Assembly (NCBI GenBank): GCA_030453435.1
Contig: JAKDKI010000011.1
Location: 1 to 17,708 of the forward strand
Direction: 5' to 3'
DNA: 17,708 bases
DNA from: Kocuria sp.
GTDB lineage: Bacteria; Actinomycetota; Actinomycetes; Actinomycetales; Micrococcaceae
The translations under genes were made by a program, and so were the position numbers. This document shows positions 105-14,284 of the stretch, piece after piece. How positions within the stretch are numbered: position 1 is the first letter of the stretch; each line of letters opens with the position of its first letter. The notes below the pieces were generated by a model. The model was not told the origin of the DNA and ran no database searches. It worked only from the letters and a program-made list of their open reading frames with translations.

Positions 105-110
105 CCTCCA

Positions 111-116
111 ACGCTA
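111..116 (-). promoter_or_regulatory. Candidate -10 box, leaderless promoter of GH13 gene
   Basis: TAGCGT on the minus strand, followed by exactly six bases and then the GTG at 104. A weak -35-like TTCCCC lies 18 bp upstream (135-140). If transcription starts at the G of GTG, the mRNA is leaderless. This is inferred from spacing only. Confidence 0.4.
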
Positions 117-238
117 GTCAGCCTGCGGGGTGGAGGGGAAATCGTGAGTGCAGGAATGACATGGCTGCGATGGAGCTCGGCTGAGGGGACTGTGTAGTGG
201 GATGGGCCTGCCACTGCCGGTGCCGGGGAAGCGGCAAG

Positions 239-362
239 CTCAAGTGTGAGGTGAGGAAAATGCAGTCAAGAAGCCTTAGGGGAGGAAGATGCAGAAAACT
301 TGCCTGATCTGAGCATTTCCCTCACACGAGACTGGAGGCCTGCACTTTCCTCACCTGGGACT
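239..362. repeat. Palindromic interspersed repeat, copy A
   Basis: About 120 bp with nested inverted motifs. GTGAGGAAAATGCAG (251-265) faces CTGCACTTTCCTCAC (340-354), and GAGGAAGATGCAG (282-294) faces CTGAGCATTTCCCTCAC (309-325). The whole could fold as one long imperfect hairpin. A second copy in the same orientation lies at 1684-1800 on the other side of the nuclease-like gene; positions 307-333 match 1745-1771 at 25 of 27 bases. No transposase is present. It may be a MITE-like or REP-like intergenic element, or a pair of sites that bound an insertion. Confidence 0.75.
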
Positions 363-428
363 CGCCTCCATCCCCCCTGTCTGATTCACCAGCAGCCACT
401 TTTCGAGAGCCATGCAGCCAGCTGACTC

Positions 429-464
429 GAGTTCTCCAGCTGACATGAGTCCTGTGGAGAACTC
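429..464. promoter_or_regulatory. 10-bp inverted repeat upstream of AbiEi-like gene, possible operator
   Basis: GAGTTCTCCA (429-438) and TGGAGAACTC (455-464) are perfect reverse complements separated by 16 bases. The site ends 61 bp before the ATG at 526 and 49 bp before its possible -10 box. AbiEi-type antitoxins are known to bind inverted repeats at their own promoters, so an autoregulatory operator is plausible. It could also be only an RNA hairpin. Confidence 0.5.
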
Positions 465-513
465 TTGGCCGCGGGATTGTGGATAACTTCCGGCTTGTCC
501 GGGTCGTGTTCTC

Positions 514-519
514 TAGAGT
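514..519 (+). promoter_or_regulatory. Candidate -10 box, leaderless promoter of AbiEi-like gene
   Basis: TAGAGT followed by six bases (CCGAGC) and the ATG at 526. No Shine-Dalgarno precedes this ATG. No good -35 is seen at 16-18 bp; TTGTCC (495-500) is only 13 bp upstream. Confidence 0.45.
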
Positions 520-525
520 CCGAGC

Positions 526-1527
526 ATGCTGTATCAACAGAAGCCGCTGAAGTTCGGGGAGCGCCCGGTGGTGCTCCGCACGGGCCAAACTGGCAAGCGC
601 GCCTCGCAGCTGATGACCAAGCCCGGAGTTCAAAGAGTGACCAAAGGTGTCTGGGCAATGCATCCTGAGCCGCTCACCGCGGTGGAGCGATCACTGTTGT
701 TACAACAGCATCTGGGTGCGCCGGGATCAACACTTGCCGTGACCGGTTTCAATGCCTTGGACCTCTTGAAGATACCCGTGGGCTATACCGACCATTGGGT
801 GCATCAATCGCTGAAGATGCCACTTCCACGGATCATGCAAAACTTCTCGGTGGAACGACAAATGGTCCATTTGCGGTGGTCAGGTGCGCGCACTCAGACG
901 GTTGCTGAGGGGATCAAGTTCTCAAAGTCGATGGGACTAAGCAGCTTTGAAGGCCCCTGGGGTAGCCGAGTTACACACCCCGTGGAAGCGCTGGTGGTCG
1001 TTGCCCCAAGGTTGTCGCACTGGCGCATCATCGCCTGTTTGGACGCGATGATGTCCTGGCAATTCATGATTCCAGGTACCGGTGTCACGGCTGAACTTCC
1101 GAGAACTGTGATCGAAGAGTGCCTGAGCCATCTGCCTCCGCATGCGTTGGCCGTCAATGCCGTGCGTAGAGGATTGCGAGAGGCCCAGGAGTCCTGCTTC
1201 TCGGCCATGGAAACTCTGACTCGCATGATCGCGCTCCACGAAGGCCTGCCCCCGCCTCAGCTCAACTATCCGGTAGAAGTCAACGGGCGAACGTTTTACC
1301 TGGATCTGGCGTGGCCGGAGTTCAAGATCGCAGTTGAATACAACGGCCGTGTCCACGCAGAAGAAGTGGATGATTACCGGGACGAGATGTATCGATTCGC
1401 GCTCATTAGGGATAGCGGATGGGATCTCACGCTGTTGGTCAAAGGGGATCTCAAGGAGCCCGACCGGAGACGAAAGTGGGTCGAGCGGGTGCGTCGGGCG
1501 ACGTCGTCGGGGACCATCAGCCTCTGA
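526..1527 (+). CDS. AbiEi-like / DUF559 PD-(D/E)xK nuclease-fold protein
   Basis: 333 aa. The N-terminus has the G-V-x-R-V-x-x-G-V-W-A text (34-44) seen at the end of the winged helix in actinobacterial AbiEi-like antitoxin-domain proteins. The C-terminus (about 225-322) matches the DUF559/Vsr-like endonuclease fold: E229 in the first helix, D260 (YLDLAWPEF), E271 in VEYNG, H277, then R-D-E-M-Y-R-F and S-G-W-D. The usual acidic nuclease residues are therefore present. Such proteins are abundant in actinobacteria, vary between strains and have mostly unproven function; defence or nucleic-acid processing is inferred. It stands alone with no AbiEii toxin beside it. By eye its codon use is less GC-biased than its neighbours, and it lies between two copies of a palindromic repeat, so recent acquisition is plausible. 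The ATG at 526 is supported by a leaderless -10 spacing; the stop falls in a tandem array. Confidence 0.8.
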   Translation: MLYQQKPLKFGERPVVLRTGQTGKRASQLMTKPGVQRVTKGVWAMHPEPLTAVERSLLLQQHLGAPGSTLAVTGFNALDLLKIPVGYTDHWVHQSLKMPLPRIMQNFSVERQMVHLRWSGARTQTVAEGIKFSKSMGLSSFEGPWGSRVTHPVEALVVVAPRLSHWRIIACLDAMMSWQFMIPGTGVTAELPRTVIEECLSHLPPHALAVNAVRRGLREAQESCFSAMETLTRMIALHEGLPPPQLNYPVEVNGRTFYLDLAWPEFKIAVEYNGRVHAEEVDDYRDEMYRFALIRDSGWDLTLLVKGDLKEPDRRRKWVERVRRATSSGTISL

Positions 1528-1585
1528 CGGACTGACGGACTGACGGACTGACGGACTGACGGACTGACGGACTGACGGGCTGACG
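1524..1585. repeat. 8-bp tandem repeat (CTGACGGA), 7 units plus 6 bases
   Basis: Six perfect CTGACGGA units (1524-1571), one CTGACGGG (1572-1579) and CTGACG (1580-1585). The TGA stop of the upstream gene (1525-1527) is inside the first unit. Because the unit length is 8, TGA recurs in all three forward frames. Near-perfect identity suggests a young array, prone to slippage in copy number. Confidence 0.95.
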
Positions 1586-1630
1586 CCGAGGTCCACCGCC
1601 AGGATTGGTGTTCTGAGTCAGCGGCCAGCC

Positions 1631-1659
1631 TCGGGTGAGCACATGATCTGCTCACCCGA
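1631..1659. terminator. Strong hairpin, possible terminator
   Basis: TCGGGTGAGCA (1631-1641) and TGCTCACCCGA (1649-1659) form a perfect 11-bp stem with a 7-base loop, about 100 bp after the AbiEi-like stop. There is no T tract on either strand, so it is not a textbook intrinsic terminator. High-GC bacteria often use such I-shaped hairpins. It could serve both converging genes. Confidence 0.55.
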
Positions 1660-1683
1660 AAGCCAAACCTCTCCGGATACTGT

Positions 1684-1800
1684 CTCAAGTTAGGAAAATG
1701 CTCTAACGGGGGCCCAGGGGAGGGAACTGCAGAAAGTGGCTCACATCTGAGCACTTCCCTCACACCAGACTTGGCCGCTGCAGTTGCCTCACATGAGACC
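1684..1800. repeat. Palindromic interspersed repeat, copy B
   Basis: Second, diverged copy of the 239-362 element in the same orientation. Matching motifs are TAGGAAAATGC (1691-1701), GGAGGGAACTGCAG (1719-1732), CTGAGCACTTCCCTCAC (1747-1763) and CTGCAGTTGCCTCAC (1778-1792). The order and spacing of the inverted motifs agree with copy A; the left part lacks about 6 bases relative to it. Confidence 0.75.
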
Positions 1801-1840
1801 ACGTCGAACCCCACTGAAGCGCCCCGTGGCCCACCTGCCC

Positions 1841-2752
1841 CTAGTTCGCCGCCTGCAAGTGCGCCAGCGGCGACCACCGTTGGAAGATCCGGCGTAAGGC
1901 GGCCGTGGCGGCACCCTGATCGTTTGAGCGGAGGAGTTCCAGTGCGTCGGCCATGTCGCGGGGGCTCTCATCGGGCTGGATCCGGTCTGCCAGCGAGCCG
2001 TAGTCCAGGCTCACGAGTGAAGCGGGGCTGAACGTTCCGAGCCATCGACCCAAACGGGTCAGATCATCCGCGAACGCCTTGGCCTGCTGGGCTTCTTCGG
2101 ACAGCTCATCAGCGTTGGGACCGGCGGAAGCGAGTGCGGCGTCCTCCACGATCTGCGCCCCCTGGATGACTCTGCGAGCGGCGGTATCGGCCGGAGCGAC
2201 GAGCCGGTGCACTTCGTGGCCGGCGTGCACGGTGACCACCCGATCCTCCATGGTGAATCCCGCGAACCAGGCCAACGGAACAACGTACGCGGACTCCCGG
2301 GTATACAGCGGCTCGAACAGTTCCCCCGAAATCTCCCGAGCCGCGTCGCGCACCTGCTTCTCCGGGACCAGAAGCGGGAGGAGCTGAGCGCCGTCGTTGA
2401 GGGTGGCGTCAGAGAACAAACGAAGGGAACGGCGTAAGCGCTGCGGGGCGTGGAAGACGGGGAAGTCACCCACACCACCCACGAAACGGGATTCCGAACT
2501 GGGCGCCGTGGAGAAGGGGATGGTCCACAGGGGTTCGCGCGCCGGCGGCAGCGGGCTGTGGGACGTGTCCGCCAGGCGGGACAGCTGCTCGGTGAGCTCG
2601 TGGACCCCGCCCTCGAAAGGGTTGAGGGCGCGCGCGATGGCGGGGGCGTGCTCGGCGTCGAGCTCCTCCTGCGGCACATAAACGCGCAACGCAAACCGGA
2701 TGGGAGGACCGATGATCCCCCGGAATGCCGTGCCCACATTCACCAAGGCCAT
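1841..2752 (-). CDS. Conserved-type hypothetical protein coupled to xthA
   Basis: 303 aa, not recognised as a named family. No signal peptide, transmembrane segment or catalytic motif is evident; it looks like a soluble cytoplasmic protein with alternating strands and acidic helices (an acidic alanine-rich helical stretch at about 205-235). The ATG at 2752 lies three bases after the TGA of xthA, so translation is almost certainly coupled and the two share an mRNA. That could point to a partner in DNA repair, but gene order alone does not prove it. The overlapping minus-strand frame at 2059-2739 is a shadow. The stop is TAG at 1841. Confidence 0.8.
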   Translation of the reverse strand: MALVNVGTAFRGIIGPPIRFALRVYVPQEELDAEHAPAIARALNPFEGGVHELTEQLSRLADTSHSPLPPAREPLWTIPFSTAPSSESRFVGGVGDFPVFHAPQRLRRSLRLFSDATLNDGAQLLPLLVPEKQVRDAAREISGELFEPLYTRESAYVVPLAWFAGFTMEDRVVTVHAGHEVHRLVAPADTAARRVIQGAQIVEDAALASAGPNADELSEEAQQAKAFADDLTRLGRWLGTFSPASLVSLDYGSLADRIQPDESPRDMADALELLRSNDQGAATAALRRIFQRWSPLAHLQAAN

Positions 2753-2755
2753 GAG

Positions 2756-3562
2756 TCAGCCGATCTCGATAACCACGGGCGCATGGTCAGAGGCGCCCTT
2801 GCCCTTGCGCTCCTCGCGGTCGATCCACGCGTCCGTAACGCGATCGGCGAGGGCGGGGGAGCACAGCTGGAAGTCGATGCGCATGCCTTCCTTCTTGGGG
2901 AAGCGCAACTGCGTGTAATCCCAGTAGGTGTACACCCCGGGGCCCGGATGGCGGGGGCGGACCACGTCAACAAAACCGGCGTCGTCGATGAACGCATTGA
3001 ACGCCGCGCGCTCGCCCTCTGACACGTGGGTCATGTTGTTGTCCCGGAAGAACTGGATGTCCCACACGTCATCGTCCTGCGGGGCAACATTCCAGTCACC
3101 CACCAGAGCGATCTGCGCCTCGGGATCATCCTTGACCCATTGCTTGGCGTGGTCCTTGAGCACGCGCAGCCACTCGAGTTTGTAGGGCATGTGCGGATCG
3201 TCCAGGCCGCGGCCGTTGGGAACGTACAGGGACCACACGCGCACGCCGCCGCAGGTCGCAGCCATGGCGCGGGCTTCCTGAATCGGCTCCTGCTTCCCCT
3301 TGCCGAACACGGGCTGGTCGGGGAACGTGCGTTCCACATCCTTGAGCCCCACCCGCGAGGCAATGGCCACACCGTTCCACTGGTTCAGGCCGAAATGGGC
3401 CACCTCGTAGCCGGCGAATTCGAACAGTTCCCACGGGAAGTTCTCGTCCTTGGCCTTGGTCTCCTGGATGGCCAAGACATCCACGTCCGAACGGTCCAGC
3501 CACGCTTCAATGCGATCGGCGCGGGCTCGGATGGAGTTGACGTTCCACGTGGCGATTCTCAT
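2756..3562 (-). CDS. xthA: Exodeoxyribonuclease III / AP endonuclease
   Basis: 268 aa, the usual size for the family. It cleaves the backbone 5' of abasic sites and has 3'-5' exonuclease and 3'-phosphatase activity in base-excision repair. The EEP-fold motifs are all present: W-N-V-N-S-I-R (N7), Q-E-T-K (E34), W-S-L-Y-V-P-N-G-R (110-118), G-D-W-N-V-A-P (D156, N158), T-Y-W-D-Y (212-216), R-I-D-F (228-231) and S-D-H-A-P-V (D259, H260). These are the metal-binding and catalytic residues of the ExoIII family. The ATG at 3562 begins with the canonical MRIATWNVNS. There is no clear Shine-Dalgarno, but TACGGT sits at -12 to -7. It is followed by the coupled hypothetical gene ending at 1841. Confidence 0.96.
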   Translation of the reverse strand: MRIATWNVNSIRARADRIEAWLDRSDVDVLAIQETKAKDENFPWELFEFAGYEVAHFGLNQWNGVAIASRVGLKDVERTFPDQPVFGKGKQEPIQEARAMAATCGGVRVWSLYVPNGRGLDDPHMPYKLEWLRVLKDHAKQWVKDDPEAQIALVGDWNVAPQDDDVWDIQFFRDNNMTHVSEGERAAFNAFIDDAGFVDVVRPRHPGPGVYTYWDYTQLRFPKKEGMRIDFQLCSPALADRVTDAWIDREERKGKGASDHAPVVIEIG

Positions 3563-3568
3563 GACACC

Positions 3569-3574
3569 ACCGTA
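3569..3574 (-). promoter_or_regulatory. Candidate -10 box, leaderless promoter of xthA
   Basis: TACGGT on the minus strand, six bases before the ATG at 3562. A weak TTCCCG lies 18 bp further upstream. No ribosome site fits this ATG, so a leaderless transcript is likely. Confidence 0.45.
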
Positions 3575-3611
3575 GCGAGCCGCGGGCCGTCGCGGGAAAC
3601 CGGGGGCGCGA

Positions 3612-3962
3612 TTACTGCTCGCCCAGCGCAGCGAGCGTTTGTAGGTGCTCGGGTTTCACGGTGACGACGTCGCTCGCATAGTCATCGTGTTTACGCACCC
3701 ACAACTTCACGTACGGGCATACCGGCACGATGGCCAGCCCCTCGGCCACGGTTTCGCCCAGTGCCTGCTTGGTCAGCACAGCGGCAAGACCCTGTCCGCC
3801 GTACGTCTCATCCACCACGGTGTGGTAGAAAATCCGTTCCGCACAGTCGGCACCCTGATGAGTCGTGTAGTGGGATTCACCGATCACGGTGTCCCCGTCC
3901 AAGAGCTCGAAACGGCGGTGGTCCGGGTTGTCACGAACCGTGATGTTGTTCTGTTCCGTCAT
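3612..3962 (-). CDS. Small GNAT-like N-acetyltransferase (YidJ/Gtn10 type)
   Basis: 116 aa. It matches the small GNAT-like family (Acetyltransf_CG): strand text R-F-E-L-L-D-G-D-T-V-I-G (17-28), I-F-Y-H-T-V-V-D (44-51), then the acetyl-CoA-binding G-G-Q-G-L-A-A-V-L (55-63) and C-P-Y-V-K-L-W-V-R-K-H (82-92). Family members are about 90-110 aa; the acceptor is unknown. The start is ATG 3962 because GAGGAG lies about 6 bases upstream. A longer open frame continues to 4628 but only overlaps the next gene out of register. The preceding CMD-fold gene ends 29 bp upstream on the same strand, so the two probably form an operon. Confidence 0.88.
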   Translation of the reverse strand: MTEQNNITVRDNPDHRRFELLDGDTVIGESHYTTHQGADCAERIFYHTVVDETYGGQGLAAVLTKQALGETVAEGLAIVPVCPYVKLWVRKHDDYASDVVTVKPEHLQTLAALGEQ

Positions 3963-3991
3963 GGCTGGCTCCTCTATCCGTGGGCCGACTA

Positions 3992-4513
3992 CTACTCGCT
4001 GCGCGTGGCACGTACCGGGTGGCCGGACAGGATGGAAATCCGGTTGAAGGTGTTGATCGCAATGGCTGACCACTGCAACGCGGAGAACTGATTGTCCCTC
4101 AGGGTTTCCCGAGCCGACGACAGATCCCGGTGCAGCGTGGAGTGGTCCAGCTCGGTGGTTGTTTCCGCAATGGCCAGGGCGGAACGTTCCAGCGGGCTGA
4201 ACACCTGGGTCTCGCGCCACGCCGGCAACACTGCCAGCTGCTGATCGGTCACGCCGGCCTCGCGGGCCTGGCGCACGTGCATGTTCAAGCAGTACGCGCA
4301 GCCGTTGATCTGGGAGACCCTCACGTTGAGAAGCTCCGTGACTGAACGCGGGATCTCGGCATCCTCGTTGGCTGCGGCGACCTTGCGGGAGAACGCATTG
4401 ATGGCTCGCCAGCTGCCGGGATCGGACTTGTCCAAGAAGAAGTGCTCGTGTGTGCTCACACCTGTCCCAACGTGTTGGGCAGTCGCAAAATTTCGGGCTG
4501 GGAAGTGCCTCAC
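3992..4513 (-). CDS. Carboxymuconolactone decarboxylase / AhpD-fold protein
   Basis: 155 or 173 aa depending on start. Numbered from GTG 4459, the AhpD core is clear: E42, then I-N-G-C-A-Y-C-L-N-M-H with C54, C57 and H61. This is the redox-active C-x-x-C plus His of the alkylhydroperoxidase-like CMD family, so a thiol-dependent peroxidase or disulfide reductase role is likely. GTG 4459 gives MSTHEHFFLDKSDP, which resembles the usual N-terminus of relatives and has GGGA 5 bases upstream. GTG 4513 adds 18 atypical residues but has a GAGAGAG about 8 bases upstream. I list the longer form and regard 4459 as at least as likely. An inverted repeat at 4466-4479 lies beside the inner start. The GNAT-like gene follows. 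Substrate unknown. Confidence 0.85.
   Translation of the reverse strand: MRHFPARNFATAQHVGTGVSTHEHFFLDKSDPGSWRAINAFSRKVAAANEDAEIPRSVTELLNVRVSQINGCAYCLNMHVRQAREAGVTDQQLAVLPAWRETQVFSPLERSALAIAETTTELDHSTLHRDLSSARETLRDNQFSALQWSAIAINTFNRISILSGHPVRATRSE
4466..4479. promoter_or_regulatory. Inverted repeat at the inner start of the AhpD-like gene, possible operator
   Basis: CCCAAC-GT-GTTGGG, a perfect 6-2-6 palindrome 6 bp upstream of the GTG at 4459 (minus strand). It resembles a small dimeric repressor site and would control the AhpD/GNAT pair if transcription starts near 4459. If the true start is 4513, it lies inside the gene and is probably coincidental. Confidence 0.3.
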
Positions 4514-4563
4514 TTTTCGCGCTCTCTCCGCTTGTTCTCGGGCGCTCGCGCGTCTGGGCCAAG

Positions 4564-4569
4564 TAGGGT
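4564..4569 (+). promoter_or_regulatory. Candidate -10 box, leaderless promoter of cls
   Basis: TAGGGT followed by GATCGT and the ATG at 4576. No Shine-Dalgarno is present upstream of this ATG. No recognisable -35 at 16-19 bp. Confidence 0.45.
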
Positions 4570-4575
4570 GATCGT

Positions 4576-5835
4576 ATGAAGACCAGAGCTGCCGTAGCCC
4601 ACCGCAAGGGACGATCTCTCCTGTTCAAGACGGGGGTGGTTGCCGCTGGCTCGTTGGCCGCGGCTCAGGCCACGGTGATCGGCTCTCTGGCCGGTCTGGA
4701 CTGGTGGAAGCACCGCAACCGTAAGGTCCGCGATGCACCACGGCCGGGTACGTTCACGGCGCACGTCGAAGAGTCCGAGATCAATATCTACACCTCGGGC
4801 GACAGCGTTTACGACGACATGCTCGAAGCCATCAACGGAGCCCAAGAATCCATTCACATGGAGACGTTCATCTGGAAGAACGATGAAGTGGGTCAGCGGT
4901 TCCTGGACGCCCTCAACGCGGCAGCGGATCGTGGCGTGGATGTCTACGTAATTTATGACGGCTTCGCCAACCTGGTGATCCCCAACTCCTTCTATAAGTT
5001 CTCCGACAACGTCAACGTTTTCCGCATGCCCGTGGTGTGGCGTAAATGGTGGCGGGGGTTCTTGCGGTACAGCGGTTTCAACCACTCGAAGATTCTGGTG
5101 GTGGACGACCACATCGGCTTTGTCGGTGGTTACAACATTGGGTCCATGTATGCCAACCAGTGGCGTGACACCCACGTGCGTGAAATCGGTCCTGCCGTGT
5201 GGGGCCTGCGCAATTCCATCGCTCGAGTGTGGAACGAAGAGCGCGATCCGGATGACCAGATCGAGTGGATTCCCCCGCAGAACTGGGATCCGGAAGTGCG
5301 GGTGGCCGCGAACCTTCCGGTGCAACTCGTCTACCCGATCCGTCATCTGTATCTGAGCGCCATTGAGCGCGCCAAGGACCACATCTGGATCACCACGCCG
5401 TATTTCATCCCTGATCAGCAAATTTTGGAAGCGCTCACGGCTGCGTCCAAGCGGGGCGTGGACGTGAAGGTCATGGTTCCCAAGGATTCGAACCACATCC
5501 TGGCTGACTGGGTGTCCCGCGGTTTCTACGGCCAACTACTGGACGCGGGGGTGACCATCCTGTTGTATGCCGCGTCCATGATCCACGCCAAGACCGCAAC
5601 CATCGACGGTGAATGGTCCACCGTGGGCACCGCCAACATCGACCGGCTGTCGCTGACGTTCAACTACGAGACCAACGTGGAAATCATCGACCCGGATTTC
5701 GCGGCGGAAATGGAGAAGGTCTTTGAAGCTGACTCCGAGCACTGCGAGGTCCTCAGCTCACCGCGCTGGCGTGACCGTCACCCCATGGCGCGGTTCGCTG
5801 AGACCATACTGATTCCGCTGCGCCCGATCCTCTAA
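4576..5835 (+). CDS. cls: Cardiolipin synthase-like phospholipase D family protein
   Basis: 419 aa. Two HKD motifs are intact: F-N-H-S-K-I-L-V-V-D-D (H170, K172, D177) and M-I-H-A-K-T-A-T-I-D-G (H337, K339, D344), each followed by the G-T/S-x-N-I/D pattern (G-G-Y-N-I-G; G-T-A-N-I-D). Bacterial Cls enzymes of this type join two phosphatidylglycerols, or a related phospholipid donor, into cardiolipin at the membrane. A hydrophobic stretch at about 15-42 is a likely single membrane anchor, and a Trp/Arg-rich patch lies at 154-161. Typical Cls proteins have two N-terminal helices, so this is a short-N version; other phosphatidyl transfer is possible. The start ATG 4576 is leaderless by spacing. 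It is divergent from the AhpD-like gene and converges with the flavin monooxygenase 16 bp downstream. Confidence 0.88.
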   Translation: MKTRAAVAHRKGRSLLFKTGVVAAGSLAAAQATVIGSLAGLDWWKHRNRKVRDAPRPGTFTAHVEESEINIYTSGDSVYDDMLEAINGAQESIHMETFIWKNDEVGQRFLDALNAAADRGVDVYVIYDGFANLVIPNSFYKFSDNVNVFRMPVVWRKWWRGFLRYSGFNHSKILVVDDHIGFVGGYNIGSMYANQWRDTHVREIGPAVWGLRNSIARVWNEERDPDDQIEWIPPQNWDPEVRVAANLPVQLVYPIRHLYLSAIERAKDHIWITTPYFIPDQQILEALTAASKRGVDVKVMVPKDSNHILADWVSRGFYGQLLDAGVTILLYAASMIHAKTATIDGEWSTVGTANIDRLSLTFNYETNVEIIDPDFAAEMEKVFEADSEHCEVLSSPRWRDRHPMARFAETILIPLRPIL

Positions 5836-5851
5836 CCGGGATAGGAACGGG

Positions 5852-7147
5852 TCAGGTCTGCGCTAGGTGGCCTCGCAACGTGGTCGCTTGATACTCGGTG
5901 CGGTAGATACCGCGCCGTTGCAGTTCCGGGACCACGAGTTCCACAAAATCACGCAGTGAATGTGGTTGTTGCGGCGGCATCAGGTTGAAGCCGTCCGCGC
6001 CTCCGGTATTCAGCCACAGCTCCATCTGATCGGCAATGCTCGACGGCGTGCCCACCATGGTGTAATGCCCTCCTCCGGCAGCCAGCCGCCCCAGCAGTTG
6101 CCGGACCGTGGGCTGTTCCGCCTCGATGATGCGCAGAATGGTCCCGTAACGCCCTTGCGGGCCAGTGAACTCCTCGAGGGGAGGCAGCGGGGGCACGGGT
6201 TCGTCCAGCTCCCATTCCGAACAGTCCTGTTCCACGAACGTGCTCAATTGCGCCAGGGACTGCTCGACCGGGAGCAGCATGTCCACCGCCCGTTGTTTTT
6301 CGAGGGCCTGCTCGTGCGTCTCACCCACGTAGGTCACCAGGCCGGGCATGATGAGCACGCTCTGAGGATCCCGGCCCGCTTGTGCAATTCGCTGTTTCAC
6401 ATCCGAGTAGTACTCCTGTGCGGACGGTAGATCATAGGCGACCGCGTAAATCCCCTCGGCGTAGTCCGCGGCCAGTTCCCGCCCCGGCCCGGACGCCCCC
6501 GCCTGGAACAGCACCGGCTCACCCTGCGGGGAGCGGGGAACCGTGAGGGGCCCGTCCACCAGAAAGTGGTGACCGTCGTGATTCACCGGAGTGATTCGAG
6601 ACGAGTCTGCGTACACCCCGTTCCGGTCCGGCCGCAGCGCATCCGAGTCCCAACTGGACCACAGCGAGCGGGCCACTGACACGAACTCCCGCGCACGCTC
6701 GTACCGCTCCGTCTTGGGCGGCATAGCGGTGTACCCGTGATTACGAGCCTCCGCATCGAACATGGATGTCACCACGTTCCAACCCACTCGACCGCCGGAG
6801 GTGTGATCCAGCGGAGCCAGCATGCGTGCAGCGTGAAAGGGAGTGAAGAAGGTGGTGGAAACCGTGCACACCAGCCCAATGTGGGTTGTCGCCCGGGCCA
6901 TGGCGGACAGAGCCGTCAACGGTTCCAGGAACCACCGAGGGCCGTCCTCCACGGAGCTGATGCTGTGGCCGTCCGCAAAGAACACGGCGTCGAACAAACC
7001 TCGTTCGGCTAATTGCGCGAGCTCCTCGTAATACGCGATGTCGCCCAGCCGTTCGACGGGTGAATCCGGTGCGCGCCATGCCGCCTGGTGATGACCCGCG
7101 CCGAACAGGAACGCGTTGAGGTGCAACTTCTTGCGCTGAGCAGCCAT
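5852..7147 (-). CDS. NtaA/SnaA/DszA-family FMN-dependent monooxygenase (LLM class)
   Basis: 431 aa, close to family length (~440). Typical text of the NtaA/SnaA/DszA branch: L-N-A-F-L (10-14), H-H-Q-A-A-W-R (19-25), F-D-A-V-F-F-A-D (52-59), E-P-L-T-A-L (75-80), S-G-G-R-V-G-W-N-V-V-T-S (117-128), R-Y-x-R-A-x-E-F (148-155) and Q-A-G-A-S-G-P-G-R-E-L-A-A (215-227). Relatives use FMNH2 from a separate reductase to oxidise C-S, C-N or similar bonds (DszA, SnaA, NtaA, EmoA). The ATG at 7147 follows the TGA of the SDR gene with no gap, so translation is coupled, and the pair sits under a TPP riboswitch. Known relatives are not thiamine genes; I infer that the substrate is a thiamine-related pyrimidine or thiazole, or an analogue. 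No flavin reductase is nearby. Confidence 0.92.
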   Translation of the reverse strand: MAAQRKKLHLNAFLFGAGHHQAAWRAPDSPVERLGDIAYYEELAQLAERGLFDAVFFADGHSISSVEDGPRWFLEPLTALSAMARATTHIGLVCTVSTTFFTPFHAARMLAPLDHTSGGRVGWNVVTSMFDAEARNHGYTAMPPKTERYERAREFVSVARSLWSSWDSDALRPDRNGVYADSSRITPVNHDGHHFLVDGPLTVPRSPQGEPVLFQAGASGPGRELAADYAEGIYAVAYDLPSAQEYYSDVKQRIAQAGRDPQSVLIMPGLVTYVGETHEQALEKQRAVDMLLPVEQSLAQLSTFVEQDCSEWELDEPVPPLPPLEEFTGPQGRYGTILRIIEAEQPTVRQLLGRLAAGGGHYTMVGTPSSIADQMELWLNTGGADGFNLMPPQQPHSLRDFVELVVPELQRRGIYRTEYQATTLRGHLAQT

Positions 7148-7912
7148 TCAGTCCATCACCAGTCCGCCGTCGACCACCAGGTTCTGGCCGGTCACCGAAC
7201 GTGACCAGTCAGAGGCAAAGAACAGCGCGGAGTCGGCGAATTCTTCCGGCGCGGTGGCGCGGCCAAGGGGCGTTGAGGCGGCGATCAGATCGAACACGGC
7301 ATCGGGGGTGGCCGAACTCGCATCGGTGGTTCGCAGCAGACCACCGGAGATCATGTTCACGGTAATCCCCAGCGGACCGAGTTCCTTGGCGGCCGTGCGG
7401 GTCAGCGACAACAGCGCAGCCTTGGCCGCGGTGTAGTCGTGGTACGGAACCACGGGGTTTTGGAACAGATTGGTGCCGATATTGATGATCCGGCCCATGC
7501 CGGCTTCGGCCATTCCGGGGGTCACCGCCCTGATCACGTTGAGGGCGCCACCCACCGCACCGTTGAGCTGCTGGTTGAAGTGCTCCCAGGTAATGGTGTC
7601 CAGGGCGGGGCGGTCATCCCCGTTGAAGCTGAAATCCACCAGGGCGTTGTTGACGGCCACCGTGACAGGCGCACCAAAATGCTCACTCGCCTTGGCCACC
7701 ATGTCGGTGACCTGTTCGGCATCGGTAACATCCGCCTGCAGACCAATCACATGGTCTTCACCCAGCTCGGAGACAAGTTGATGGGCTCGTTCCTCGCTTT
7801 GGCGGTAGTTGATCACCACCCGAGCACCTTCGCGGACGAAGGCGCGAGTCAGGCACTCGCCCAAACCTCGTGCTCCGCCGGTGATGAGAACGATGTGCTC
7901 GTTGATCCGCAT
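7148..7912 (-). CDS. SDR-family NAD(P)-dependent oxidoreductase under a TPP riboswitch
   Basis: 254 aa classical short-chain dehydrogenase. Cofactor motif T-G-G-A-R-G-L-G (11-18); R37 after the second strand suggests NADP(H); D61-V (ADV), N88-N-A, N117, and Y160-x-x-x-K164. The catalytic serine, 13 residues before the tyrosine in FabG-type enzymes, is Thr147 here (I-I-N-I-G-T). ATG 7912 is chosen because AGGAG (7922-7918) ends five bases before it; the upstream GTG 7918 would overlap that site. It is the first gene after the riboswitch and ends directly at the start of the monooxygenase. Rodionov-type comparative studies reported a thi-box-linked SDR called oarX; I recall this but cannot confirm orthology. 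The substrate is unknown, and the general annotation 3-oxoacyl-ACP reductase would be misleading. Confidence 0.92.
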   Translation of the reverse strand: MRINEHIVLITGGARGLGECLTRAFVREGARVVINYRQSEERAHQLVSELGEDHVIGLQADVTDAEQVTDMVAKASEHFGAPVTVAVNNALVDFSFNGDDRPALDTITWEHFNQQLNGAVGGALNVIRAVTPGMAEAGMGRIINIGTNLFQNPVVPYHDYTAAKAALLSLTRTAAKELGPLGITVNMISGGLLRTTDASSATPDAVFDLIAASTPLGRATAPEEFADSALFFASDWSRSVTGQNLVVDGGLVMD

Positions 7913-7978
7913 GCTCACTCCTGTGGCTCTACGGCGAGTGGATGCGTTAAAGCTCAGGGTTTACTCCCGGCTACGACA

Positions 7979-8081
7979 TGACATCCCTTCGCCAGTGCTA
8001 ACTGGACAGGTTCAACGGGTGTGAATCTCAGCCGGTCCTGCGCATCGTGTGATGCGTGTGGGAGCTCGGCACCCCGTGTCA
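7979..8081 (-). promoter_or_regulatory. TPP riboswitch (thi-box)
   Basis: Read on the minus strand, all core elements occur in order. P1 is TGACA (8081-8077) with TGTCA (7983-7979). Next comes GGGGTGCC, then an optional P3a hairpin CGCATC-ACAC-GATGCG (8056-8041). CTGAGA (8031-8026) and ACCCGTTGAACCTG follow, then P5 CCAGT-TAGC-ACTGG and GCGAAGGGA (7992-7984). The aptamer binds thiamine pyrophosphate and normally lowers expression of the downstream genes. About 66 bases separate it from the SDR start. CACTC (7940-7936) can pair with GAGTG (7920-7916), which covers the Shine-Dalgarno, while no terminator with a U tract is seen, so translational control is more likely. Confidence 0.93.
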
Positions 8082-8090
8082 CTACTGTGT

Positions 8091-8106
8091 GAGTGTAGCC
8101 ACACTC
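8091..8106. promoter_or_regulatory. Inverted repeat between nadE and the TPP riboswitch
   Basis: GAGTGT-AGCC-ACACTC, a perfect 6-4-6 inverted repeat 11 bp after the nadE stop. It could be the weak nadE terminator (no T tract). On the minus strand it also contains TACACT, a plausible -10 for the riboswitch operon, so the site may combine promoter and operator. Confidence 0.4.
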
Positions 8107-8117
8107 GGTGGGTAAAG

Positions 8118-8945
8118 CTAAAGCGCGCGCCACCAGTCATCCGCCGGGGTCACCGGTACGGTGCGCTTGTGTCGTGAACGCAGGAAGATCGTCTCCAGCC
8201 GCTCTGCGACGTCGTCGGTGATTTCTTTGCCCTCTAGATAATCGTCGATGTCGTTGTAGGTCAGACCCAGTTCGTCCTCGTCCGTGCGACCGGGGTTGTC
8301 GTCCAGCAGGTCTGCGGTGGGTACCTTGGAGATCAGCGGTTCAGGCGATCCCAGGTATTCGAGCAGCTGCCGGTTCTGGCGTTTGTTCAGCCCACCCAGT
8401 GGCAGCAGATCCGCGCCGCCGTCGCCGAACTTGGTGAAGAAACCGGTCACCGATTCCGCGGCATGATCCGTTCCGATCACCAACAGATTGTTGTCCCCGC
8501 CGACGGCGTATTGGGCCGTCATGCGCACGCGCGCCTTGGTATTGCCTCGCGTGAAATCGGTCAGCTCCGATCCGGTGGCCGACTCGTAGGCCTCTTCGAA
8601 ACCGCGCACGGCCGGAGCGACGTCGTAGGTAATGGTCTGGTCCGGGGCGATGAACGCGAGCGCGGCCTGCGCATCGGCCTCGTCGTGCTGCACCCCGTGC
8701 GGGAGACGCATCGCTACGAACTGGACGTCACTACCTTGAGCACGAAGCTTCTCCACGGCCAGTTGGGCGAGCTTGCCCGCGAGAGTGGAATCCACCCCGC
8801 CGCTGATGCCCAGGACGAAGCCCTTGGTGTGAGTGGCCTCGAGGTAGTCGCACAGAAAATCGACCCTGCGTTCGACTTCCGCGGCGGGGTCGATCTGCGG
8901 TTTCACACCGAGTTCGGAAATGATCTGAGCCTGCAATTCGCGCAT
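8118..8945 (-). CDS. nadE: NH3-dependent NAD+ synthetase
   Basis: 275 aa, the same length as E. coli NadE. It amidates nicotinate adenine dinucleotide with ammonia and ATP to give NAD+, the last step of NAD synthesis. The ATP pyrophosphatase P-loop is S-G-G-V-D-S (48-53). Other family blocks are [10 protein letters not shown] (133-142), G-T-D-H-A-A-E (158-164), [15 protein letters not shown] (169-183) and K-R-T-V-P (260-264). No glutaminase domain is attached, so it is the ammonia-dependent type. ATG 8945 gives [19 protein letters not shown], aligned with known N-termini; the frame continues upstream to 9872 but that part is the shadow of the echA gene. TACCAT lies at -12 to -7. The gene is divergent from echA. 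Confidence 0.96.
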
Positions 8946-8951
8946 GCGGTC

Positions 8952-8957
8952 ATGGTA
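8952..8957 (-). promoter_or_regulatory. Candidate -10 box, leaderless promoter of nadE
   Basis: TACCAT on the minus strand, then GACCGC and the ATG at 8945. No Shine-Dalgarno is visible before this ATG. No convincing -35. Confidence 0.4.
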
Positions 8958-9041
8958 GTACTCGCGTGTTTCCGCGGTGTGACATGTCTTCACACTCGGC
9001 TTTTCAAGGTTGACCCAAGGCCCACATGAGATGCTGGTCAC

Positions 9042-9827
9042 ATGAGCGAAAACACCGAATACGAGACCATTGTGGTGAGCCGTGACGGCCGCGTAGGCGT
9101 GATCACCCTGAACCGCCCCAAGGCTCTCAATGCCCTGAATGAGCAGACCATGAACGATGTGGTTGCTGCCGCTACCGAGCTCGATCGCGACCCGGACATC
9201 GGCGCAATCGTCCTGACCGGTTCGGAAAAGGCGTTCGCCGCGGGCGCTGACATCAAGGAGATGGCCACTAAGTCCGCGGCCGAGATGTACCGCGTGGACT
9301 TCTTCTCGCCGTGGGATGCTTTCGCCCGCCTGCGCACCCCCAAGATTGCCGCCGTTGCCGGTTACGCCCTGGGCGGTGGCTGCGAGCTGGCCATGATGTG
9401 CGACCTGATCATCGCTGCGGACACCGCAAAATTCGGTCAGCCCGAGATCAATCTGGGCGTCATCCCCGGTATGGGCGGCACCCAGCGGCTCATCCGCGCC
9501 ATCGGCAAGTCCAAGGCCATGGACATGATCCTCACCGCACGCCAGATGGACGCAGAGGAAGCCGAACGCTCCGGCCTGGTAGCTCGCGTGGTTCCTGCCG
9601 ATCAGCTCCTGGACACCGCCAACGACGTCGCTCGCACCATTGCCGGGCTCTCCAAGCCCGTTGCTCAACACGCCGTCGAGTCCGTCAACGCGGCGTACGA
9701 GACCACCCTGCAGCAGGGTGTGCAGTACGAGCGCCGCGTATTCCACGGCTTGTTCTCCACCGCTGACCAGAAGGAAGGTATGGCCGCCTTCAGCGAGAAG
9801 CGCAAGGCCAACTTCACGCACGAGTAA
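9042..9827 (+). CDS. echA8: Enoyl-CoA hydratase, EchA8-like
   Basis: 261 aa crotonase, very similar in recalled text to mycobacterial EchA8. It hydrates trans-2-enoyl-CoA to 3-hydroxyacyl-CoA in fatty-acid beta-oxidation. The oxyanion-hole segments are [11 protein letters not shown] (64-74) and [13 protein letters not shown] (109-121). Both catalytic glutamates are present, E115 and E135 (G-Q-P-E-I-N-L-G), with the usual 20-residue spacing. The C-terminal helix [10 protein letters not shown] is typical. There is no Shine-Dalgarno before ATG 9042; GATGCT at -12 to -7 is a near match to the leaderless -10 pattern, and TTGACC (9010-9015) is a -35-like hexamer with too short a spacer. It stands alone, divergent from nadE. 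Confidence 0.94.
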
Positions 9828-10232
9828 AGCGTGAGCGAGGCGACCGAATGGCCTTGCCGGGCCGGTGAGCATTTGGTGAGAATCAACGACACGGTTGGAG
9901 CATGACCGACCGGCTCACCACAACTCATTCACCGGATCGCGGTCGCCAAGGCCGCTTACCAGGACCCGTTCACTGAGGCACGTTATTCGGGGAGGACATA
10001 CTCCCGAAAAACCGTTGACCAGTGGACGGGTTTTGCGTTGCCGCAGCCCGCTTTCGGCGAAGCCGTGCGCTGGTACACGGTTTTTGGAGGGTATGCGCCC
10101 TGCGAAGACCATGCGCCGATGAACGTTCCTTCCTCGTGCGGTTTGGACTCCACAGGCTATTGCGAACGTGCCAAAGACCCGCCGAAGTGCACAATGCCTT
10201 GCGAGGGAGGCACATGAGGGCTGGCCGATTGC
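9828..10232. other. Intergenic region between echA and MarR gene
   Basis: 405 bp with no gene I can support. The first ~115 bp show nothing beyond a 7-bp inverted match (GGTGAGC 9864-9870 / GCTCACC 9913-9919). From about 9945 to 10150 there is a cluster of degenerate repeats with inverted symmetry. Long open frames on both strands cross it but read only repeat text. Confidence 0.65.
9945..10150. repeat. Cluster of four degenerate 51-60-bp repeats with inverted symmetry
   Basis: Repeat units can be anchored at 9953, 10013, 10064 and 10124 (spacings 60, 51, 60). The best units are CGTTGACCAGTGGACGGGTT (from 10013) and CGTGCGCTGGTACACGGTTT (from 10064). The second also matches the first on the opposite strand: AAAAACCGTTGACCAG near 10008 against AAAAACCGTGTACCAG read backwards from about 10085. 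Each unit is a small imperfect hairpin, and TTCGGGGAG/CTCCCGAA (9986-9994 / 10001-10008) adds another. Forward translation gives a recurring R-x-L-V-x-G-F pattern, a sign of repeated DNA rather than of a protein. Confidence 0.55.
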
Positions 10233-10244
10233 TTGTCTGGGGTC

Positions 10245-10661
10245 ATGCGAGTGGTGGATGTGTATCGGTTGTCGAGGCGGCTCAAGGAGTTGGCGGATGC
10301 GGCCGTGCCCGCTGAGGGGGATGGCCGACTCAAACCCGGGGAAATGGAGGTGATGAACTACCTCGCGGAGAACCCGGGTGAATCGGTCAGTGGGATTGCG
10401 CGGGGAACGCGATTGTCCAAGAGTCTGGTGTCCAGGTACGTGAGGGAGCTCCATGGTGTGGGGCTCGTGAAGTATCAAACCGACTGCTTCGACGCGCGGT
10501 TCAGGATGATCGAGCTCTCGGAATCGGCGCGGAGGGAAATCCGGTTGCGGGCGGAAGTATCCGTCCAGTTTGCACTGTACGAACACGAACCGTGGCTGTC
10601 CTACAAACAACAACGGGACGCTCTTGACCTCATGAAGTCCTTGGCGGACATTCTTCGGTGA
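10245..10661 (+). CDS. MarR-family winged-helix transcriptional regulator
   Basis: 138 aa from ATG 10245. An N-terminal helix (1-20) is followed by a MarR winged helix: K-P-G-E-M-E-V-M-N-Y-L (30-40), S-V-S-G-I-A-R (47-53), the recognition helix L-S-K-S-L-V-S-R-Y-V-R-E-L (57-69), G-L-V-K-Y (73-77) and the wing with D83-A-R-F-R. A C-terminal dimerisation helix (95-138) completes it. Such proteins are dimeric repressors or activators, often ligand-responsive. The start is uncertain: GTG 10251 has GGGG 8 bases upstream, and TTG 10233 extends the frame by four codons. It precedes the molybdate operon by 78 bp on the same strand, but that operon has its own promoter, so a link to molybdate is not shown. 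The target is unknown. Confidence 0.85.
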   Translation: MRVVDVYRLSRRLKELADAAVPAEGDGRLKPGEMEVMNYLAENPGESVSGIARGTRLSKSLVSRYVRELHGVGLVKYQTDCFDARFRMIELSESARREIRLRAEVSVQFALYEHEPWLSYKQQRDALDLMKSLADILR

Positions 10662-10704
10662 GTAGCTTGTCGACCAGGTTGATCCGAATTTACGGAATCT
10701 TTCG

Positions 10705-10733
10705 CTGACTAAGCCCGCAAATGCGGATAGGCT
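10705..10733 (+). promoter_or_regulatory. Promoter of the molybdate operon, leaderless
   Basis: CTGACT (10705-10710), a 17-bp spacer and TAGGCT (10728-10733), then six bases and the ATG at 10740. This is the best sigma70-like promoter in the window, and its +1 would be the A of the ATG. No Shine-Dalgarno is present. Confidence 0.6.
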
Positions 10734-10739
10734 CGGCGC

Positions 10740-11141
10740 ATGACTTTGTTGCGGGTGGCTGATGCGGCGCTGTTCTTGGGTGTCAGTGATGACACGGTGC
10801 GTCGGTGGATTGACCAAGGCACGCTCACGCGTCAACAGAATGCCTCCGGTCATGTGGTAGTGGATGGAGTCGAGCTGGCCAAGCTGGCCAAGCGCAATGC
10901 GATAAACCCCAGAGACCCCAATAGCGGTAAGGGGTCGGCGAGGAACCGGTTGGTCGGACTGGTGACCTCGGTAACGTCGGACACGGTGATGTCCCAAGTG
11001 GAGATGCAGTGCGGCCCTCACCGGATCGTCTCGCTGATGAGCACCGAAGCCGTCCGGGAGCTCAAGCTCGAACCGGGGTCGGTGGCTACCGCGGTGGTTA
11101 AAGCCACCACCGTCATCGTCGAATCCGGAGATTTCTCGTGA
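10740..11141 (+). CDS. HTH-TOBE molybdate-responsive protein
   Basis: 133 aa with two parts. Residues 3-50 form an excisionase/MerR-type helix-turn-helix (L-R-V-A-D-A-A-L-F-L-G-V-S-D-D-T-V-R-R-W-I-D-Q-G). Residues 69-130 form a TOBE/Mop domain (N-R-L-V-G-L-V-T-S-V to A-V-V-K-A-T-T-V-I-V-E). TOBE domains bind molybdate or tungstate, so this is probably a sensor that controls the operon it heads, comparable in role but not in HTH type to ModE. It could instead be mainly a molybdate-storing molbindin. Its TGA (11139-11141) overlaps the GTG of modA. The first gene of the operon carries the oxyanion-binding domain that the ModC part downstream lacks. Confidence 0.9.
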   Translation: MTLLRVADAALFLGVSDDTVRRWIDQGTLTRQQNASGHVVVDGVELAKLAKRNAINPRDPNSGKGSARNRLVGLVTSVTSDTVMSQVEMQCGPHRIVSLMSTEAVRELKLEPGSVATAVVKATTVIVESGDFS

Positions 11142-11935
11142 GGGCCCGGGCCAGGTTTGCCGTGCTGAGTGCCGCGGCCGCATTGATTCTCATGGCGTGT
11201 GGAACCGGCGAAGGCAGCGACGGGAGCTCGAGCGCGAGTGGGGGAGCGGCGTCGTCGGAGCAAGGAACGGTGACGGTGTATGCGGCGGCGTCGTTGACCG
11301 ACAGCTTCGATCGGCTGGTTGAGGAGTTCGAGTCCCGGCACCCGGGCACAGACGTCATGGTGGATTACGGGGGATCGACCGGACTGGCGCAACGGTTGCA
11401 GGAGGGCGCGCGGGCGGATGTGTTTGCCTCGGCTGATGAGCGGATCATGGACCGGCTGACGGGTTCGGATCTGCCGACGGGTGAACCGGAGACTTTCGCG
11501 AGCAACACGCTCACTCTCGTTGTGCCGGACGGTAACCCGGCCGGCATTTCCGGGCTGAACGACCTTGGCAAAGAGGGTGTGAATTTCGTGCGGTGCTCGC
11601 CAGAAGTGCCGTGTGGTGCGGCCGCGGACGAGCTCGAAGAGTTGAACGGCGTGGAGCTGAACCCTGTGAGTTCGGAACACTCCGTGACCGATGTTTTGGG
11701 GAAGGTCACGTCGGGGCAGGCGGATGCTGGGCTCGTGTACGCCACCGATGCTCAGGCAGCCGGTGAGCGGGTAGAGAAGATCGAGGTGCCGCATGCGGAG
11801 GACGTGGTCAATCGCTACCCGGTGGTGAAGTTCCCCGGTTCGTCGAATGAGGCTGCCGCGGGGGATTTCGTCGACCTGCTCATGAGTGAGCGGGGTCAAG
11901 ACATCTTGCGAGATGAGGGGTTCGGCGCGCCATGA
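11138..11935 (+). CDS. modA: Molybdate ABC transporter substrate-binding lipoprotein
   Basis: 265 aa. It captures molybdate (or tungstate) outside the membrane and delivers it to ModB. The signal peptide is R-rich (MRARARF), followed by a hydrophobic core and lipobox L-M-A-C with C21 as the lipid anchor. A Ser/Gly linker spans about 26-42. The ModA fold follows: [13 protein letters not shown] (45-57) with the oxyanion-contacting serine, Y-G-G-S-T-G-L-A-Q (77-85) and A-D-V-F-A-S-A-D (93-100). [10 protein letters not shown] lies near 195-205, and a typical C-terminal [14 protein letters not shown] follows. GTG 11138 overlaps the preceding stop (GTGA), with GGAG about 8 bases upstream. Its stop overlaps the modBC start (ATGA). 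Confidence 0.96.
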
Positions 11936-13644
11936 TGCGCGCTCGATTCCGGACGGTGCCCGGGTGGGTGCTGATTCCGGCGCTGGTGGGGGTGCTGTTC
12001 GTGCTCCTGCCGCTGCTGGGCATGCTGCTGCGAGTGGACTGGGCGAGTTTATGGGGCCTGCTGACGTCCGAGTCTTCGCTCACGGCGCTCGGGCTGAGTT
12101 TGCGGACGGCACTGATCTCCACGGTGCTGTGTGTGCTTCTGGGGTGCCCGCTCGCATTGGTCCTGGCCAGAGTCCAGCTCCCGGGGCTGCGGATCTTGCG
12201 ATCGTTGGTGCTCCTACCGCTGGTGCTGCCGCCGGTGGTGGGCGGTATCGCGCTGCTGTACACCTTTGGACGTCTGGGGCTTGTGGGGCAACAACTGGAA
12301 GCGCTCGGGGTCTCGATTGCCTTCTCCACGAGCGCGGTGGTGCTCGCGCAGACATTTGTGGCGCTGCCGTTTTTGGTTGTGTCCCTCGAAGGTGCCTTGC
12401 GAACCATGGGCACCCGTTACGAGGAAGTTGCGGCCGGCCTGGGCGCTTCCCCCACGGTGGCACTGAGGCGAGTGACTCTTCCCCTGGTAGCTCCGGCGAT
12501 TGCCTCTGGGGCGGCCCTCTCCTTTGCTCGATGCTTGGGGGAGTTTGGGGCGACCCTGACTTTTGCGGGCAGCATGCAAGGCGTCACGCGCACCTTGCCG
12601 CTGGAAATCTACCTGCAGCGTGAGACTGACCCGGAGGCCGCTATCGCGCTATCGCTCTTGTTGGTGCTCGTGGCGGTTGCGGTCGTGGGATTTTCGGCCC
12701 CCTCCCGACGACGCCGCGGTGCCGGCTTCCGTGCAGGCTTGTCTGGCTGGGTGCGGGGTGCTGGACGGTCCGCGCGGGGTGTGGCTGAGGCAGATGGCGC
12801 TGCTACCTCACCCGCGCAGGCTCGAGGGGCCGCCGCTGAGCGAGGCAATTGTGATTCCTCTCGGTTCGAGGGGCTGTCGGGCCTTGGCGAGGTGCCGAAT
12901 CTTCAGGCGAGCCCGGCAGCTGGGCGGGAGGGCCACAACGGGTTGGAAGCGCGCGTGGTCTTGGAATCTCGGGGCGTCGATGCCGAACTTCGGGCTGATC
13001 GCGGTCAGACTGTGGCTCTGGTTGGGCCCAACGGGGTGGGCAAGTCCACGATTTTTGCGGTGATTGCCGGTCTCCTGGCGCCCGACCGGGGGCGAGTGCG
13101 GGTGGCCGGGAACGACGTTGTCGACCTGGGCGAAAGTAGCCGTGGCAAGTGGACCCCCGCACATCGACGGGGCGTGGCCCTGATGGCGCAGGAACCCCTG
13201 TTGTTCCCGCATCTGAGCGTGTTGGAGAACGTGGCCTTCGGGGCGCGGTGCAAGGGCCTTGGCCGGGATGCGTCGAGGCGATCGGCGCTTCGGTGGCTGG
13301 GGGAGACAAACGCGGAAGGGTTTGCCGACCGTTATCCCGAACAGCTGTCAGGTGGGCAGGCGCAGCGGGTCGCGATCGCTCGGGTGTTGGCAGCGGAACC
13401 GGAACTGGTGCTGTTGGATGAACCTCTGAGTGCGCTGGATATCTCGGCCCGGCCGGAGATTCGCAAGGTACTCAAGCGTGTGCTCGCGGAGAGGACCGCA
13501 GTGATCATTACCCACGATCCGGATGACGTTGCCGAGTTGGCGGATCACACGGTGCGGCTGGGGTCGGCCGGTAGCAAGCAGTTGGATCGCGGCGGCACCG
13601 ACTCGGGTGGCTCGAGCGCGGGTAGCTCGACCGCACGTGTTTGA
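11932..13644 (+). CDS. modBC: Fused molybdate ABC transporter permease and ATPase (ModB-ModC)
   Basis: 570 aa; moves molybdate inward across the membrane using ATP. Residues 10-255 are a ModB permease with about five membrane helices and the EAA loop (E-E-V-A-A-G-L-G-A, 164-172). Residues 256-336 are a low-complexity linker. Residues 337-545 are an ABC ATPase: Walker [10 protein letters not shown] (365-373), Q-loop Q420, signature L-S-G-G-Q (472-476), Walker B L-V-L-L-D-E (492-497) and H528. ModB and ModC are usually separate, and classical ModC has a C-terminal TOBE domain; here the ATPase ends without one. There is no stop or frameshift in the linker, so it reads as a true fusion. ATG 11932 overlaps modA; ATG 11935 is equally possible. 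The next gene starts directly after its TGA. Confidence 0.93.
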
Positions 13645-14247: not shown

Positions 14248-14284
14248 TCGCTCGCGGCTCGGCGCTTGGCCCTCGGCTCGGTGT

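Follow-up and report, generated by a model that had tools for sequence, protein, structure and literature searches.

The window analysed here, a stretch of 17,708 nucleotides of Kocuria sp. (GenBank assembly GCA_030453435.1, contig JAKDKI010000011.1, positions 1 to 17,708), carries on its minus strand a thiamin pyrophosphate (TPP) riboswitch followed by two genes, one encoding a short-chain dehydrogenase/reductase (SDR) and the other a luciferase-like monooxygenase (LLM) dependent on flavin mononucleotide (FMN). The unit consists of the following features, listed from 5' to 3':

7967–8086, minus strand: TPP riboswitch aptamer RF00059 (Rfam cmscan, full model 1–105)
7913–7966, minus strand: presumed expression platform with the Shine-Dalgarno sequence AGGAG 5' of the SDR start (read from the sequence)
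7148–7912, minus strand: SDR of the PRK08642 family, 254 aa from ATG 7912 (NF006393; Pfam adh_short_C2)
5852–7147, minus strand: NtaA/DmoA-type FMN-dependent (LLM) monooxygenase, 431 aa (TIGR03860; Pfam Bac_luciferase)

An initial annotation had placed a complete minus-strand thi-box before the pair, at 7979–8081, and the Rfam covariance model bore this out with slightly wider limits: the match covers the full model, its score of 58.4 bits exceeding the gathering threshold of 54.3 (E value 2e-9 for the window). Against a covariance model of our own, built from 21 elements which include the window sequence and thus match by construction, the element scored 73.5 bits. When P1 was forced to pair in ViennaRNA, the modelled unpaired probabilities of the first three Shine-Dalgarno bases fell from 0.72, 0.66 and 0.62 to 0.34, 0.20 and 0.07, and this stronger pairing makes translational control by occlusion of the Shine-Dalgarno sequence plausible.

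The SDR open reading frame (ORF; 7148–7918, minus strand) scores 433.7 bits with NF006393 (PRK08642; cut-off 292) and also matches Pfam adh_short_C2. It is open from GTG 7918 too, but ATG 7912 is the more likely start, because it stands five bases after AGGAG and the 34 best matches of the protein search, the top one being 99% identical, are all 254 aa, the length counted from this ATG. With residues numbered from GTG 7918, N91 and the Y-x-x-x-K motif (Y162 and K166) are present in all 86 aligned rows (a few of which are duplicates) and T149 in 85; position 37, near which an acidic residue selects NAD, is asparagine in 77 rows and aspartate in 5. The LLM scores 525 bits with the NtaA/DmoA model TIGR03860 (cut-off 279.7) and also matches Pfam Bac_luciferase; in the LLM tree it groups with Kocuria (81% identity to K. 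marina). Its ATG directly abuts the SDR stop codon with no base between the genes, in agreement with the coupling noted initially.

Protein searches brought up close relatives from genera such as Kocuria, Rhodococcus, Halomonas and Methylobacillus. Named genomes were scanned with an alignment of 13 LLM sequences, and the best 80 of 490 confirmed loci, a set biased toward close relatives, were examined (L140 and L143 were treated as the same loci as L054 and L058 and counted once; L022, labelled Cyanobacteriota by the tool, comes from a record titled Rhodococcus). Rfam itself was run on 16 of these loci and our own model on the window and all 80. The SDR gene abuts the LLM gene in 75 of the 80. 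The initial annotation would have taken the lack of a thi-box at the pair in every related genome as a refutation; a TPP element does lie directly 5' of the unit in 69 loci, at a median of 65 bases before the aligned start; because of this recurrence, chance presence of the element appears very unlikely. Rfam detected a TPP element in 16/16 loci, and in all but L015 the element stands 5' of the unit on its coding strand. Loci with the TPP-controlled unit span Actinomycetota, Pseudomonadota and Bacillota and include three on plasmids (Pseudochrobactrum, Rhodococcus and Mesobacillus); the Mesobacillus LLM is 53% identical, yet the element is kept. In a Bacillota sample only one of 296 was a carrier (E 1e-140), the already known Sporosarcina. 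All 42 Pseudomonadota rows stand together in the LLM tree with three Nocardiopsis beside them, and one Bacillota row (L073) lies among the Actinomycetota. By sequence the unit belongs to TPP regulons, and we regard it as almost certain that riboswitch and pair are real and that the pair belongs to thiamin regulons as a conserved component. TPP control in so many loci would also speak against a fatty-acid reductase role for the SDR, and annotating the pair as "3-oxoacyl-ACP reductase" and "nitrilotriacetate monooxygenase" is misleading.

Could the pair instead scavenge sulfur or carbon in the manner of NtaA or SsuD, with a riboswitch in front of it by accident? Eight LLM paralogue loci (43–49% identity), hand-picked rather than drawn at random from 28 plasmid records below 60% identity, were searched with 3 kb of flank each. 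Five of them are annotated, and all five have ATP-binding cassette (ABC) transporter genes beside the LLM, as a scavenging pair might; the other three records are unannotated there. A TPP element was found in none of the eight, as against its retention in 69 of the 80 loci and even at the distant Mesobacillus locus, which makes accidental control a very remote prospect and weakens a generic NtaA-family explanation. The riboswitches of the pair also share a P1 motif, GACAC...UGUC, which occurs in 53 of 71 (window included), in none of 36 minus-strand elements (35 beside a symporter described below, one at a contig edge) and in 3 of 16 other thiamin riboswitches, these being hand-picked with two in L156 excluded. 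This distribution would fit riboswitch and genes having been inherited or transferred together.

Two single loci have further features near the pair. An Alcaligenes locus (L061) has an FMN riboswitch at 10250–10393, 1 kb downstream; this is possibly a matter of chance, though the LLM needs reduced FMN. In Carnimonas nigrificans (L069, 7229–9781) a NUDIX gene overlaps the LLM stop.

As noted initially, neither gene of the unit is a known gene of thiamin synthesis or transport. Among relatives, known thiamin genes do adjoin the pair. A ThiV-like sodium:solute symporter (PF00474) was found by tblastn beside the unit in 36 of the 80 loci, all within the 42 Pseudomonadota, and in 5/5 further Marinobacter regions outside the 80 (L137, L138, L139, L141 and L142); in 35 of the 36 (all but L048) the symporter is accompanied by a separate TPP element on the minus strand. 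It is the only strongly conserved further neighbour that could be made out, the remaining downstream ORFs scanned being mostly unrelated to thiamin. In the literature thiV is described as a sodium symporter and putative transporter of 4-amino-5-hydroxymethyl-2-methylpyrimidine (HMP) (PMC10881298), regulated by a TPP riboswitch and homologous to panF (PMC2211319). Two other arrangements involve biosynthetic genes: one locus (L006) has the order TPP-thiM-thiE-SDR-LLM, and four Marinobacter genomes (L057, L058, L137 and L141) have thiG directly 3' of the LLM gene.

The thiamin gene content was determined in 48 carrier genomes, selected among the 80 loci so as to be diverse and including drafts and metagenome-assembled genomes of unstated completeness. 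All have a TPP riboswitch. ThiD is present in 48 (45 over the cut-off) and ThiG in 47, in pieces in G001–G003 and G030 and with one in-frame stop in G038. ThiC exceeds the cut-off in 30, being full-length or nearly so in 29 and damaged in one, and is absent in 18, of which 17 keep ThiG and 15 have TenA; TenA occurs in 40 carriers overall. ThiM exceeds the cut-off in 21, 18 of them with a full-length gene in one piece, and 27 carriers lack it at that level. As ThiC is the frequent gap while ThiG and ThiD are near-universal, these counts point to salvage on the pyrimidine rather than the thiazole side, and the pair probably acts on the pyrimidine side of thiamin.

The thiM-thiE and thiG neighbours would favour another possibility, namely that the pair converts a thiazole that has been oxidised or substituted, for instance on the ring or to an aldehyde or acid in the side chain, back to hydroxyethylthiazole (HET) or its phosphate. 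ThiM, which is needed for the use of HET, is found in fewer than half of the carriers, so most of them could make no use of a ThiM-requiring product, whereas a product entering at HMP would suit all; together with the ThiG count, the frequent loss of ThiC and a linked symporter of the putative HMP-transporting kind (PMC10881298), this weakens thiazole-side salvage, which we consider improbable.

In three ThiC-less draft genomes (G028, G032 and G034), a TPP scan with stricter filters found only two elements, one before the ThiV-like symporter and one before the pair, and in other ThiC-less carriers elements precede YkoE-type genes (G001, G045 and G047) or a TenA-ThiY-like ORF (G007). In Kocuria tytonis (G003; L136:1-4001), an open thiC behind a TPP element matches only profile positions 1–132, 232–297 and 363–419, two internal stretches being missing, which looks like decay of ThiC in a carrier of the pair. 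That 18 carriers lack ThiC and 17 of these have ThiG might also mean that HMP is formed independently of ThiC from a metabolite other than a thiamin breakdown product. The TPP-regulated transporter beside the pair in 36 loci and the elements before YkoE-type or TenA-ThiY-like genes suggest instead the uptake of ready-made pyrimidines. We know of no precursor from which two reactions, one of an LLM and one of an SDR, would yield HMP, and such formation seems quite unlikely.

Tentatively, and with opinion close to evenly divided, we propose that the unit is a TPP-repressed module salvaging the pyrimidine half of thiamin by cleavage to an aldehyde and reduction of the latter to HMP. When TPP is low, the riboswitch would permit translation of SDR and LLM. 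The LLM, supplied with FMNH2 by a separate reductase and with O2, would oxidise the methylene carbon of a 4-amino-2-methylpyrimidin-5-yl-CH2-X compound and release X, leaving the pyrimidine carbaldehyde, which the SDR, probably with NADPH, would reduce to HMP for use by ThiD and ThiE. Candidates for X are formamide or another N-substituent, as in N-formyl-4-amino-5-aminomethyl-2-methylpyrimidine (FAMP) or its relatives, a sulfonate, and a base swapped in by thiaminase I; cleavage of thiamin by sulfite yields the sulfonate, and thiaminase I carries out base exchange. What the sequences show is the riboswitch, the gene order, their conservation, the regulon membership and the co-occurrence of genes; the pyrimidine side, the aldehyde, its reduction and the substrate we infer. 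The N-T-Y-K set of the SDR, its mostly asparagine position 37 and an oxygenase expected to free an aldehyde read as cleavage followed by NADPH reduction to the alcohol, which for a pyrimidine-CH2-X substrate is HMP. TenA in most carriers makes the plain aminomethylpyrimidine (AmMP) less likely as the sole substrate. TPP control is conserved among relatives, as would be expected of a pyrimidine salvage module: besides the 69 loci and the one with thiM-thiE between riboswitch and pair, nine have a divergent element only and one has none. The salvage role suggested initially, for a modified thiazole, pyrimidine or thiamin analogue, fits the TPP control and the ThiV-like, thiM-thiE and thiG neighbours best; its thiazole variant has lost ground, with 27 of 48 carriers lacking ThiM and 47 having ThiG.

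An oxygenase of the NtaA type and a reductase under TPP control would also suit a unit that repairs or disposes of an intact but damaged or toxic analogue of thiamin (a disulfide, an N-oxide or an antivitamin) and returns thiamin itself, and the 29 carriers with full-length ThiC as well as ThiG and ThiD keep the pair where HMP can be made. The near-universal ThiG and ThiD beside the 18 absences of ThiC suggest that the product joins the pathway as HMP and not as thiamin (ThiE was outside the genome scan), and we think analogue repair rather unlikely. More ambitious is the idea that the pair is a separate, oxygen-dependent route to HMP which replaces ThiC in some bacteria, starting either from a ubiquitous metabolite, which would make it the third such route after those of ThiC and yeast Thi5, or from thiamin pyrimidines cleaved by sulfite or thiaminase that known salvage enzymes refuse; we rate this as doubtful.

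Several observations weigh against pyrimidine salvage by the unit. Five loci (L020, L036, L055, L066 and L067) have no SDR adjoining the LLM; in one of them, from a metagenome-assembled actinomycete (L066), the TPP element stands directly 5' of the LLM gene (7902–9269) with no intervening SDR. From these LLM-only loci it would seem that specificity lies in the LLM step. In nine Achromobacter loci (L015, L016, L020, L029, L031, L035, L036, L055 and L067) the unit is not preceded by a TPP element, only the divergent one of the symporter being found, and the Carnimonas nigrificans locus is the only one of the 80 to have the pair and no TPP element in the available stretch. A search without filters for a hidden plus-strand element, confined to a 501-base stretch each of L069 and of L015 as one of the nine Achromobacter loci, found none. 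Furthermore, 29 of the 48 carriers keep ThiC, the substrate would have to escape the TenA that 40 of them possess, and the biosynthetic genes adjoining the pair, thiM-thiE upstream in L006 and thiG downstream in the four Marinobacter genomes, are thiazole or joining genes.

The comparison of carriers with their kin is likewise divided. A genome here ranked as a carrier if its LLM match reached 65% identity; the SDR and the TPP element were examined in some only, and partial ThiC matches (e.g. in G108, G128 and G150) were counted as present. Among 100 Marinobacter genomes, 11 have the LLM of the unit, and ThiC is missing in 7 of these 11 as against 3 of the 89 others (Fisher p 2.2e-6, uncorrected for kinship), a difference that speaks for pyrimidine salvage. 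Two of the seven (G077 and G099) are single contigs of 4.45 and 4.00 Mb, about genome size, and so the gap is not just a matter of draft quality. An rpoB match was obtained in 95 genomes, and 52 of these went into an rpoB tree: 10 carriers, G106, G163 and 40 hand-chosen others. At the limit applied, neither the carrier G118 nor G125 gave an rpoB match. In this tree carriage needs only 2 changes, so the Fisher p-value overstates independence, and ThiC absence needs 6; ThiC-less carriers are interspersed with ThiC-bearing ones. An independent-pairs test had only 2 pairs, putting significance out of reach. The missing ThiC in G106 and G163, both small (2.1–2.2 Mb) and the latter on a very long branch, may reflect incompleteness or misplacement. 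No association was seen in 28 Rhodococcus genomes, where 7 of 22 carriers lack ThiC, as do 3 of the 6 genomes without the LLM. Together with the points gathered above, the few changes on the tree, the two pairs and the Rhodococcus result count against pyrimidine salvage, and the link of the pair with ThiC loss is suggestive, not proven. Two Rhodococcus genomes of 6 Mb each (G067 and G069) have neither an LLM match at E 1e-100 nor ThiC.

Among known enzymes of this kind, NtaA cleaves C-N bonds, NtaA and DmoA give aldehyde products, and the alkanesulfonate monooxygenases SsuD and MsuD convert R-CH2-SO3 to R-CHO and sulfite. The last reaction has the pattern that we propose for a sulfonated pyrimidine, but the window LLM scores only 57.6 bits with the SsuD model, far below the cut-off of 518.2. 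Its closest solved structure is YtnJ/MoxC (PDB 1yw1 and 6ask; 322 bits by phmmer), and YtnJ is presumably CmoJ. CmoJ, a homologue of YxeK and DszA, forms an aldehyde together with a sulfenic acid by C-S cleavage, and CmoJ, YxeK, DszA and DmoA are flavoenzymes that break such bonds (PMC10863075). By analogy with this closest relative of solved structure, the window LLM, also a TIGR03860 member, may release an aldehyde. It differs from YtnJ in its conserved H19-H20, which align with G-T there, and the pair differs in its coupled SDR and its TPP riboswitch regulon, with a context of thiamin genes instead of a cysteine or sulfur salvage operon.

The salvage of FAMP and AmMP to HMP by TenA, YlmB and ThiY resembles the proposed function in supplying HMP under TPP control, and carriers have TPP-linked transporters of ThiV-like, YkoE-like and ThiY-like kinds; the enzymes there are hydrolases, whereas the pair combines an oxygenase and a reductase. 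YlmB is not clearly present in two Roseobacteria, O. lucimarinus and further bacteria and phytoplankton of the sea, which makes FAMP of interest as a candidate substrate, although neither of the two Roseobacteria grew on it (PMC10470507). ThiC, which produces HMP phosphate from aminoimidazole ribotide (AIR) by a radical cascade (PMC11117688), supplies the same branch of the pathway and is absent in 18 of the 48 carriers, but the pair, unlike ThiC, most likely works on a ready-made pyrimidine.

In the literature searched, with most subscription papers outside its reach, no function of the SDR-LLM pair is described. The main text of a TPP regulon survey (PMC3766115), in the portion available, does not contain the words monooxygenase, oxidoreductase or dehydrogenase; its supplementary gene lists may name the genes. 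Methylobacillus has an LLM 69% identical to the window protein. Rodionov et al. are said to have listed in 2002 a thi-box-linked, 3-oxoacyl-ACP-reductase-like SDR of Methylobacillus under the name oarX, which, together with thiamin, was not found in the literature searched. Few bacterial regulons have been mapped as well as those of thiamin, and still no described function was found there for this two-gene redox unit, which is kept under TPP control in three phyla. If the pair does feed HMP, it would explain how some ThiC-less bacteria obtain the pyrimidine half, auxotrophy calls based on missing thiC would change, and flavin-dependent C-N or C-S cleavage would be added to vitamin salvage.

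In the rest of the window, an NAD synthase gene lies upstream of the unit on the same (minus) strand and a phospholipase-D-like gene downstream of the LLM gene in convergent orientation; no thiamin gene was seen among the part of the window ORFs that was scanned. On the plus strand, a gene for a 133-aa protein with helix-turn-helix and TOBE regions (10740–11141) precedes a solute-binding protein gene and a 570-aa ORF with permease and ATPase domains (11138–13644). The region 10740–13644 looks like a molybdate transport set with a fused permease-ATPase, which we take to be ModB-ModC. On the minus strand, a 534-aa ORF (14802–16406), for which Pfam gave no match at 1e-5, overlaps an ABC ATPase gene (16403–17521) and is probably the membrane part of an ABC exporter.

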